DNA of 64,000 nt, from assembly GCA_013112535.1 (NCBI GenBank), contig JABFGI010000001.1:62001-126000 (forward strand), in the 5' to 3' direction. This DNA comes from Pseudomonadota bacterium (GTDB taxonomy: Bacteria > Pseudomonadota > Gammaproteobacteria > Eutrophobiales > Eutrophobiaceae). A model generated the notes under the pieces. It was not told the origin of the DNA and made no database searches. It was given only the letters and a program-made list of their open reading frames with translations. The first letter of the stretch is position 1; every line of letters starts with the position of its first letter. Below are positions 49,748 through 52,646 of the stretch, one piece after another. The position numbers and the translations under genes were made by a program.

Positions 49748-50434
49748 ATGTATCTTGATAAAACAGAATATAAAACAAATATCGATCTCGGATTATATAT
49801 AGAAAGTCTCTTAAAAACAGATGAGTCAGAATCATCACTAAATAGGAAAGCAGATGAAAAACTTGAAACGTTTATTTTAAACGATCTGTTTATTTCTGAA
49901 GATGTTTCTATTACGGCAGAACAAAAAGTTGATGAACAGCCAACTATTCCTGTATGGGGACAAGAACCATTTAAATGCTTGCTGGTTAAATCGGGAGGAA
50001 TGAATTTAATGATACCGGCGATGTCAGTTTCTTACATTGAAAGAATTAATAAAAAAATAAATCGTTTACCATTAGAAGTCGAAGCGTTACGTGGTGTACT
50101 AACATTAAGAGATCGAACTGTTGCAGTTATCGATCTGTGTACACTCATTTCTGAAAATGGTTCAGCATACAAAAAGTCAATATCAGAAGTTGATGAACAT
50201 CATATTGAACATGTCCTCGTCATGGAAAACGGGGCATATGCTCTTGCTTGTGATGTAGCAGGTGAAATGATTATGCTGGAGCCAGAAAGTATTCGTTGGA
50301 ATAAAGCCAGTTTTAATAATCCGATGTTTACCGGTATTGTACCTGATTATCTTTGTCCTATTATTAATATCGATAATGTAAAATTGCAAGTTGAGGCAAT
50401 TCCTTTTGTGCAATCATTAAACAAAAATTATTAA
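49748..50434 (+). CDS. CheW-like protein (ParP-type partner)
   Basis: 228 residues. A variable acidic N-terminus (1-70) precedes a CheW-like domain (about 75-225) with CLLVKSGGMNLMIPAMSVSY, LRGVLTLRDRTVAVIDLCTL and NPMFTGIVPDYLCPIINID. Its place after the ParA-like gene matches ParP of Vibrio and PA1463 of Pseudomonas, which tie CheA arrays to the ParA-like ATPase. Its stop overlaps that of the convergent gene on the other strand by 4 bp. Confidence 0.85.
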   Translation: MYLDKTEYKTNIDLGLYIESLLKTDESESSLNRKADEKLETFILNDLFISEDVSITAEQKVDEQPTIPVWGQEPFKCLLVKSGGMNLMIPAMSVSYIERINKKINRLPLEVEALRGVLTLRDRTVAVIDLCTLISENGSAYKKSISEVDEHHIEHVLVMENGAYALACDVAGEMIMLEPESIRWNKASFNNPMFTGIVPDYLCPIINIDNVKLQVEAIPFVQSLNKNY

Positions 50435-51093
50435 GTAGTCGGTTTTAATGAAGGAACAAAATTCAAACGCACATTATTACGAATTGGGGTAAAAAATTTC
50501 ACACGACATTGTTCGTCATTTTGTTGCAAAACTTCAAATGTTACTTCACCTTCGTTAGAAGATGCATCAATAGAATAGTCATTTTCTGCTGGATGATAAA
50601 ATTTTATTTCTATATCACGATAACTTTTATCCGTAACGGACGTAATATTTCGACAATCAAGAATAGAAACTGAGTTCGATAATTGCAAAACAACGTAGGT
50701 GTTTTTATTTTTTCCGTATCCGGGTTGGGAATGTACGACAACTTCACTTTCTCCATTAATATGTATGTCCTTTACAAATGACAGAATAGTGTTCTCATCT
50801 TCAAGCTCAATCGAATATTCAATTGGTTTATAGAATACAAGCTTTGCAATAATAAATACTATTGCTGTGGTAAAAACAGAAAAAACACAAGCAAAGAAAA
50901 AAGCAAATAACGAAAAAGAAACCAGACATAATAATAGAGAAATAACAGTGGCACCGATCAGTGCATTTTTATCACCAACCCAGTTTATTAAATATTGCAG
51001 AGAATCCTGCAGTGAGCCTCCTGGTCTGTAAATTCGACCGAAAGTATCAGTAATTATGACCATTAAATTTTTTAATTTATCAGTATGTGCCAT
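50431..51093 (-). CDS. Putative inner-membrane protein of unknown function
   Basis: About 220 residues from ATG 51093; GTG 51105 is an alternative. Two adjacent membrane helices lie at about 44-68 and 70-90 (ALIGATVISLLLCLVSF, then AFFFACVFSVFTTAIVFII). A soluble beta-rich domain of about 120 residues follows. I do not recognise a family. It sits antisense between the ParP-like gene and cheW, which are adjacent in comparable clusters, so it looks inserted. A sigma70-type promoter is visible upstream. Confidence 0.6.
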   Translation of the reverse strand: MAHTDKLKNLMVIITDTFGRIYRPGGSLQDSLQYLINWVGDKNALIGATVISLLLCLVSFSLFAFFFACVFSVFTTAIVFIIAKLVFYKPIEYSIELEDENTILSFVKDIHINGESEVVVHSQPGYGKNKNTYVVLQLSNSVSILDCRNITSVTDKSYRDIEIKFYHPAENDYSIDASSNEGEVTFEVLQQNDEQCRVKFFTPIRNNVRLNFVPSLKPTT

Positions 51094-51118
51094 CTGCCCC
51101 ACCACCGCTTCTTGTTTT

Positions 51119-51148
51119 ATATAACTGATCCTACCCTAACTGGCTCAA
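51119..51148 (-). promoter_or_regulatory. Possible sigma70 promoter of the antisense membrane-protein gene
   Basis: On the minus strand: TTGAGC, 18 bases, TTATAT. It lies 26 bp before the ATG at 51093. The match is moderate. Confidence 0.35.
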
Positions 51149-51224
51149 ATTGTGCATTTCTTGTCTAACATGCTGAAAGCTAAGCGAATTACAGTTATGT
51201 CTCAAGGGAATAATGACCCTATAT

Positions 51225-51240
51225 TGGCATGGCTAATGCA
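51225..51240 (+). promoter_or_regulatory. Sigma54 promoter of cheW
   Basis: TGGCATGGCTAATGCA. The -24 is strong, the -12 is ATGCA and GG-GC spacing is 12 bp. It lies 71 bp before cheW, downstream of the antisense insertion, so cheW can be expressed independently of the upstream che genes. Confidence 0.7.
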
Positions 51241-51311
51241 AGTATTAGCATAATTACAAATTTAGACGGAAATTTGACGGTAAACAAGCATACGTAACAG
51301 AGGATAAAAGT

Positions 51312-51803
51312 ATGAGTGCAACTATGAGCAGCCAAAACAGTAACGCGAGTGATGAAGTTATTCAATGGGTTACATTCAAATTGGGTGAAGAAATCTATGG
51401 CATTAATGTCATGCAGGTACAGGAAGTTTTACGGTTACCCGAAATCGCACCGGTCCCTGGTGCACCAAGTTATGTGATGGGAATTATTAATCTTCGTGGC
51501 AATGTCGTTACAGTTATTGATACCCGGAATCGTTTTGGTTTATTTCAAAAAGAACCGGATGACTCAACTCGCATTATTATTACTGAGGTCGATAGTCAGG
51601 TGATTGGCATGCTGGTAGATAGCGTTGCTGAAGTCGTGAATTTAAGAGGTTCGCAAATCGAAACAACGCCAAATCTGGGTGAAGACAATGAAAGTTCGAA
51701 ATACATTCAAGGCGTACACAGTCGTGATGAAGAGATCTTAATATTGATCGATGTTGACAAATTGCTCACGGAAAGTGAATTAGATGCGGTAAGTGGATTT
51801 TAA
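51312..51803 (+). CDS. cheW: Chemotaxis scaffold protein CheW
   Basis: 163 residues, a single CheW domain: WVTFKLGEEIYGINVMQVQE, APVPGAPSYVMGIINLRGNV and TVIDTRNRFGL. It bridges receptors and CheA. The AGAGGATAAAAGT leader gives a good ribosome-binding site. A perfect 14-bp palindrome (GGATTTTAAAATCC, 51795-51808) overlaps its stop codon. Transcription is likely from the sigma54 site at 51225. Confidence 0.95.
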   Translation: MSATMSSQNSNASDEVIQWVTFKLGEEIYGINVMQVQEVLRLPEIAPVPGAPSYVMGIINLRGNVVTVIDTRNRFGLFQKEPDDSTRIIITEVDSQVIGMLVDSVAEVVNLRGSQIETTPNLGEDNESSKYIQGVHSRDEEILILIDVDKLLTESELDAVSGF

Positions 51804-51818
51804 AATCCATGTAGAAAA

Positions 51819-51980
51819 ATGACTGAGCTGGGAAAGATAAAACCGCTGGTTCAACCGCTTCCAGTACGGCCAATAAATAAAGATCCTGCAAAAAAAGAGC
51901 AGGAAAAAAAGAAAAAGAATAAGGAACTGCCGCATCAGGAAGAAGAAAGTTCGAATGAGCATGTAGACGAATTTATATAA
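51819..51980 (+). CDS. Small charged protein after cheW
   Basis: 53 residues. The N-terminus is MTELGKIKPLVQPLPVRPIN, a Pro-rich segment, followed by a Lys/Glu-dense tail (KKEQEKKKKNK) ending DEFI. It has no signal peptide or membrane segment. The ribosome-binding site is poor. Short proteins with similar Pro-rich phrases occur near flagellar and chemotaxis genes in related bacteria as far as I recall, but I cannot verify that here. It begins 15 bp after cheW, and may be co-transcribed and coupled with it. Confidence 0.5.
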   Translation: MTELGKIKPLVQPLPVRPINKDPAKKEQEKKKKNKELPHQEEESSNEHVDEFI

Positions 51981-52017
51981 TGACGAGGGCACTTATTGGA
52001 GAGAGGTCTCGGATACA

Positions 52018-52207
52018 GTGACAAAACAAGGTTAATGTATCTATGTCATGAGGTATGTCAGGGAAGCTATACCTCTATTATTAAAAATGTATGAGTTTAA
52101 AACTTATACTCAAAGAAATGACAGAGTTAAACAGGAAGGGGCTTTAATAACAGGAACGATGTATCTCTGTCATCGAGGTATACCAGGGATTGGTATACCT
52201 TGTTTTT
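52018..52207 (+). repeat. Tandem structured repeat, two copies, 5' of the DUF2802 gene
   Basis: Two related segments about 125 bp apart share ATGTATCT-TGTCAT and GAGGTAT...TATACCT. Each can form two stems. In copy 1 these are GTGACA/TGTCAT (52018-52023 with 52044-52049) and GAGGTAT/ATACCTC (52050-52056 with 52069-52075). In copy 2 they are ATGACAGAG/CTCTGTCAT (52118-52126 with 52165-52173) and AGGTATACC/GGTATACCT (52176-52184 with 52192-52200), followed by TGTTTTT, which looks like a terminator. A further hairpin lies between the copies (near 52090-52109). No known riboswitch signature is recognised. This is the main content of the 258-bp gap before the DUF2802 gene. Confidence 0.6.
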
Positions 52208-52238
52208 AGAAAATAAGATTAAAGTAGAAGGCAAAAAC

Positions 52239-52646
52239 ATGAATCTTGTAAATATAGAATTACTTTATAGTTTGGTCCCATTATTTTTATGTATTGTTGT
52301 CGCAATGTTAATCGTCTCTACAATACGCCTTCGTCAACAAACACAAAATCAAAATAGAAAAATTAATCAATTGAACGAAGAGTTGAATGCCTTGCTTTCA
52401 TGTAGTCGAGGTATTTCAGAAAGACTCCATTCGCACCAGTATCAATTTCAAAATATAACGCACCGTCAGGATAAACTGGAAGTATCAGAACAGGGGCATG
52501 GGGGGTATAAACAAGCCATTGCATTATTTAATCGTGGTGCTTCTGAAGATGAAATGCTTTCTACCTGTGATCTTAGTCGTGGTGAAATCAACCTGATTGC
52601 CCATCTGCAAAAAGCCAAATCAAAAAATCAGTATCAAAAAATTTAA
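52239..52646 (+). CDS. DUF2802 membrane-anchored protein
   Basis: 135 residues from ATG 52239 behind AGAAGG; a TTG at 52200 is rejected because it falls inside the hairpin. One N-terminal membrane helix (LLYSLVPLFLCIVVAMLIVS) and a coiled coil precede the DUF2802 domain, YKQAIALFNRGASEDEMLST and LSRGEINLIAHL. It corresponds to PA1465, which follows cheW in Pseudomonas. The function is unknown. It is the last gene of the flagellar/chemotaxis block. Confidence 0.75.
   Translation: MNLVNIELLYSLVPLFLCIVVAMLIVSTIRLRQQTQNQNRKINQLNEELNALLSCSRGISERLHSHQYQFQNITHRQDKLEVSEQGHGGYKQAIALFNRGASEDEMLSTCDLSRGEINLIAHLQKAKSKNQYQKI

Follow-up and report, generated by a model that had tools for sequence, protein, structure and literature searches.

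A doubled RNA element with predicted CsrA-binding loops between cheW-orf53 and fipA in a gammaproteobacterial motility cluster

High-affinity sites of the Csr/Rsm system (CsrA/RsmE) follow a consensus in which an ANGGAX hexaloop is closed by a C-G pair (PMC4005645), and SELEX with CsrA gave the consensus RUACARGGAUGU, with six-nucleotide loops on mostly short stems (PMC7652899). Such sites occur in several genetic settings. The RrA/RrB/RrF RNAs of the E. coli rRNA operons lie between two terminators and bind CsrA, as measured, as well as Hfq (PMC8144298), and the Campylobacter flaA mRNA is both a target and a titrator of CsrA, with its sites in the flagellin mRNA leader (PMC4894983). At the 3' end of CsrB, CsrA blocks RNase E beside the terminator, whose own GGA is part of the stem and is not regarded as a site (PMC5027483).

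We have analyzed a window of 64,000 nucleotides (the whole stretch of DNA under study), in which a doubled RNA structure of 224 nt (about 51980-52203) lies between cheW-orf53 and the DUF2802 gene taken here as fipA. With RsmZ/RsmY/RsmX and CsrB/CsrC, this element shares GGAs in loops, an A(N)GGAX loop closed by a C-G pair and a 3' terminator-like end, whereas it has fewer sites, matches no Rfam family and sits inside a chemotaxis-flagellar junction, its last CsrA-type loop being carried by the terminator-like hairpin itself. It resembles RrA/RrB/RrF as an operon-end RNA of CsrA type that is found close to terminators and whose hairpin loops carry two GGAs, but sequence and operon are unrelated, and CsrA binding, measured there, is predicted here (PMC8144298). 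Like Campylobacter flaA, it belongs to a flagellar message that may be controlled by CsrA and also titrate it, although its sites follow cheW-orf53 and precede fipA rather than lying in a leader (PMC4894983). With the CsrB 3' end, it has in common CsrA-type sites beside an intrinsic terminator, which could set RNA stability; the GGA is in the loop here and not in the stem (PMC5027483).

The features of the junction, whose gene order is cheW, orf53, element and fipA, are the following:

51224-51240, plus strand: sigma-54-like promoter TTGGCATGGCTAATGCA (GG-N10-GC), a consensus match conserved in relatives
51312-51803, plus strand: cheW (Pfam CheW, 4e-41), with which the chemotaxis genes of the flhA-flhF-flhG-fliA-che-mot-parA cluster end
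51819-51980, plus strand: orf53, small charged protein ending HVDEFI, conserved in 5/5 genomes
51980-52075, plus strand: element copy 1 (fold, orthology)
51980-51984/52045-52049 (P1), about 51985-52010 (Pa), 52011-52042 (Pb) and 52050-52075 (P2), plus strand: helices of copy 1, Pa and Pb being inner hairpins (fold)
52059-52066, plus strand: CsrA-type hexaloop C[AGGGAA]G capping P2 of copy 1 (sequence, consensus of PMC4005645, background scan)
52089-52109, plus strand: linker hairpin of 9 bp between the copies (fold)
52118-52203, plus strand: element copy 2, with P1 at 52118-52126/52165-52173 and P2 at 52174-52202 (repeats, fold)
52174-52209, plus strand: intrinsic-terminator-like hairpin and U-tract, copy 2 P2 (terminator scan)
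52184-52192, plus strand: CsrA-type loop C[AGGGAUU]G, with one extra nucleotide, capping P2 of copy 2 (sequence, background scan)
52239-52646, plus strand: fipA (DUF2802; Pfam DUF2802, 4e-13)

Upstream of the junction, the cluster comprises flhA, flhF, flhG, fliA, cheZ, cheA, cheB, MotA-type and MotB-type genes, parA and a first cheW-domain gene. It is interrupted ahead of the last cheW by a minus-strand ORF of 224 aa (50431-51105) with no Pfam match, which is conserved in the relatives G003 and G007 and was not found in the G016 locus. The sigma-54-like motif lies 88 nt before cheW in the window and 88-92 nt before it in G003, G007 and G016. Since the opposite-strand gene splits off the last cheW and this motif is conserved, transcription would start near 51251, and cheW, orf53 and the element probably share one transcript beginning there. 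A second sigma-54-like GG-N10-GC motif, CTGGCTCAAATTGTGCA, is found at 51140-51157, and a similar one, CTGGCTTGAATAGTGCA, in G003 and G007. The 53-aa orf53 product has no Pfam family; its C-terminus reads [VI][DN]E[FY]I, it is also present in more distant relatives, and the first base of the element falls within its stop codon. Homologues of the fipA product bring FlhF to the cell pole. The assignment of the DUF2802 gene as fipA, a polar flagellum placement factor, is ours by domain and position: FipA, a DUF2802 protein encoded just after the motility cluster, was reported in 2024 to be a polarity factor of FlhF, a partner that proper polar flagellum formation requires (PMC11620751).

The initial annotation had proposed two related segments about 125 bp apart, and direct repeats of 15 nt at spacings of 124-126 do relate the two copies. 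The helices that it gave for copy 2, P1 (ATGACAGAG/CTCTGTCAT) and P2 (AGGTATACC/GGTATACCT), each of 9 bp and perfect, with TTGTTTTT coming after P2, were recovered as well. Its start for copy 1, 52018, had to be moved to 51980, at the stop codon of the 53-codon ORF: the 5' arm claimed from 52018 on sits in an inner hairpin, and P1 is instead formed by AUGAC (51980-51984) with GUCAU (52045-52049), an arrangement shared with the orthologs that arises in the unconstrained fold. For 52000-52210 the folding energy is -59.6 kcal/mol, compared with an average of -42.3 for 200 dinucleotide shuffles (z -4.3), 0 of which did as well. Taken alone, copy 2 and copy 1 gave z values of -4.9 and -2.7, respectively, against shuffled sequence. 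The G003 element in isolation folds at chance level (z 0.13), which counts against the explanation favored below.

BLASTN against 96 relatives returned nothing past the element's own locus. The element being too diverged for this search, orthologs were sought by gene position. One copy each was found between orf53 and fipA in G003, G007 and G002, the three other genomes of the genus with a readable junction, and in G016, of the sister genus; the G011 junction, with fipA at a contig edge, was left out. A covariance model made from these copies, the check that the initial annotation had proposed, was then run on 53 genomes of the family and matched the window copies, the four positional orthologs and a duplicate junction in G002, and nothing else; across 369 genomes of the class it matched only in the own genome and in G016. 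In G015, G019 and G031, of more distant genera of the family, fipA is present and the element absent; in G015 (locus L009), about 200 nt of unrelated sequence, resembling a repeat of another kind, are inserted between orf53 and fipA. Scanning the cheW-fipA gaps of other Gammaproteobacteria for GGA-loop hairpins (loops of up to 9 nt allowed; interrupted stems missed) gave a few small hairpins, none with the P2 layout, and these gaps are mostly shorter. R1, applied to 39 of these loci, found only L018, which is that of G016.

The second junction of G002 is on another contig, and the 200 nt that immediately precede fipA are the same in both. The end of cheW, orf53, the element and fipA thus occur twice in this genome (contigs C2 and C3; loci L017/L104 and L005), with cheW cut in both. 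The sequence preceding the cheW remnant in L005 looks like a transposase gene, and the fipA end in L017 looks frameshifted.

Comparison of the copies supported specific pairing. With P1 and P2 together, 89.6% of cells are paired versus 22-50% when the pairing is slid, a drop indicating that the P2 pairing is specific, and three P2 pairs are changed on both sides (UA to CG, and AU to GC twice). On the plus strand 86/96 cells are paired, compared with 81/96 on the minus strand. The suggestion that structure rather than sequence is conserved is thus borne out by the compensatory P2 changes and not by the covariation score alone, which, with only six sequences, was no better than column shuffles (93/500 reached it). 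Adding the inner helices naively to the alignment gave no better consensus fold. A tandem cis-acting RNA with a terminator-like last stem, as first proposed, is upheld by the orthologs, by the P2 changes and by the presence of one locus per genome, save the recent duplicate in G002.

The most conserved part of the element, its P2 loop, had been missed by the initial annotation, which described the P2 hairpins without their CANGGA loops. CANGGA is found in 6/6 copies, with C, A, G, G, A and G all invariant. Five of the six loops are exact ANGGAX hexaloops closed by C-G, and the sixth, that of copy 2, has one extra base. We have scanned 1.39 Mb of strand for loops of ANGGAX type with at least 7/9 flanking pairs and found seven comparable hairpins elsewhere, so that about 0.001 would be expected in a stretch the size of the element, where two are observed. 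The P2 loop is a predicted protein-binding signature, that of CsrA/RsmA; from the motif and the fold we infer that the element would bind CsrA. Since the hairpin tips match the high-affinity site, motility genes are probably controlled at this junction. The own genome carries one canonical CsrA gene, of 62 aa and adjoining lysC, whose product aligns along its length with PDB CsrA chains (up to 3e-26). A search for csrA in G003 gave none; the contig there ends within the neighboring lysC.

Other observations fit CsrA binding less evenly. The P2 loops resemble the six-nucleotide loops of the SELEX consensus, but the P2 stem is longer than in most SELEX ligands, which counts against a CsrA site (PMC7652899). 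By eye, the P1 domains of G002, G003 and G016 show GGA-tipped hairpins; counting against CsrA, the inner GGA hairpin loop is missing from G007 and P1 does not form in G016.

Copy 2 P2 has the form of an intrinsic terminator, with 13 pairs followed by TTTTT, and it was the only terminator-like hairpin found (1 versus 0.2 expected). A U-run follows the last P2 in 3/5 genomes, including G002 and G007; it is missing in G003 and in copy 1 and weak in G016, which again counts against the explanation favored below. The last P2 is separated from the fipA start codon by 36 nt, and with about 35 nt in the window, G002 and G007 alike, the gap is too short for a promoter, so that fipA most likely depends on read-through.

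We moderately favor, as somewhat the likelier outcome, a CsrA(RsmA)-binding RNA that ends the cheW-orf53 message on its 3' side, gates read-through into fipA and maybe titrates CsrA. The cheW-orf53 unit would be transcribed from the sigma-54-like promoter, with the element at its junction with fipA. Each copy would consist of a P1-closed domain with GGA hairpins, followed by P2 tipped by an ANGGAX loop as the CsrA site. The last P2 and its U-tract would double as a partial intrinsic terminator, fipA being made mainly from transcripts that read through; this partial termination, and its effect on fipA, we infer. CsrA dimers on the loops may then alter 3'-end stability or read-through, and with it fipA output; they could protect the 3' end, by analogy with the CsrB terminator (PMC5027483). 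In amounts that follow cheW transcription, the terminated RNA would sequester part of the CsrA and could also titrate it, by analogy with Campylobacter flaA mRNA (PMC4894983). A dedicated CsrA-responsive terminator, in which CsrA bound to the loop of the terminator hairpin itself would set read-through from the chemotaxis genes into fipA, with the element doubled in this species, is a proposal that we make tentatively and hold to be rather unlikely in this form.

The alternative that survives best, possible though on balance unlikely, is a plain operon-end terminator or attenuator setting a fixed low fipA level by read-through, with a GGA loop that is merely stable or inherited and CsrA uninvolved. 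A plain terminator is expected to keep its stem and U-tract while its loop is free to drift. The terminator-like form of copy 2 P2 and the U-run kept in three of the five genomes suit such a device, as does the short stem of most SELEX CsrA ligands (PMC7652899). However, the stem drifts without any change in the loop letters CANGGA..G, the loop matches a CsrA hexaloop that is rare among background hairpins, copy 1 and G003 retain the loop without a U-tract, and the upstream P1 domain would be superfluous.

We consider it doubtful that the element mainly titrates CsrA as a free sponge, in the manner of CsrB/RsmX sRNAs, whether made from its own promoter or cut from the cheW-orf53 3' end. The 224 nt of the doubled element do hold six GGA motifs, of which four are of the CAGGAAG, CAGGAAC or CAGGGA type (CAGGAAG and CAGGAAC lie in the copy 2 P1 interior), it ends in a terminator-like hairpin, and the RsmZ, CsrB and RsmY models gave nothing above the Rfam cut-off across the genome. 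Each copy, however, has two or three GGA motifs, few for a sponge, and the orthologs have no more. The element is missing from several genomes of the genus that do have csrA, an absence that speaks for a local and not a global role. Promoter-like sites in the region are at chance level, and the genome has no perfect TGTAAG-N7-CTTACA site, which speaks against a free sRNA with a GacA-type promoter; the loci around three one-mismatch sites had no Rfam match.

A structured RNA for another ligand, be it another protein or a metabolite, seems very unlikely. A P1-closed multi-helix domain directly 5' of a terminator-like stem would suit a riboswitch-like aptamer with its expression platform, as first proposed, but an aptamer core should be most conserved, and the P1 interior is the most variable part of the element. 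A relaxed-threshold Rfam scan of the element gave three chance-level matches only, with no riboswitch class and no CsrB, RsmY or RsmZ. Short ORFs begin at the P1 ATG; a leader-peptide attenuator was rejected, as G002 and G007 differ by one-base indels that change the reading frame and the ATG is lacking in G016. An interspersed repeat or mobile miniature element, which the two tandem copies had suggested to the initial annotation, is refuted by the presence of a single locus, with no unlinked copies, in the 3.05-Mb genome and by a model that matches this junction only in the 53 family genomes.

Among the open-access papers searched, none deals with FipA and CsrA/RsmA jointly. A CsrA site in the loop of a terminator-like hairpin would be an unusual arrangement and, if the CsrA-responsive terminator is real, it would tie the Csr system to the site of flagellum placement. 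If CsrA acts on the CsrA-binding RNA proposed here, the Csr switch would reach beyond flagellum synthesis to the step of its placement.
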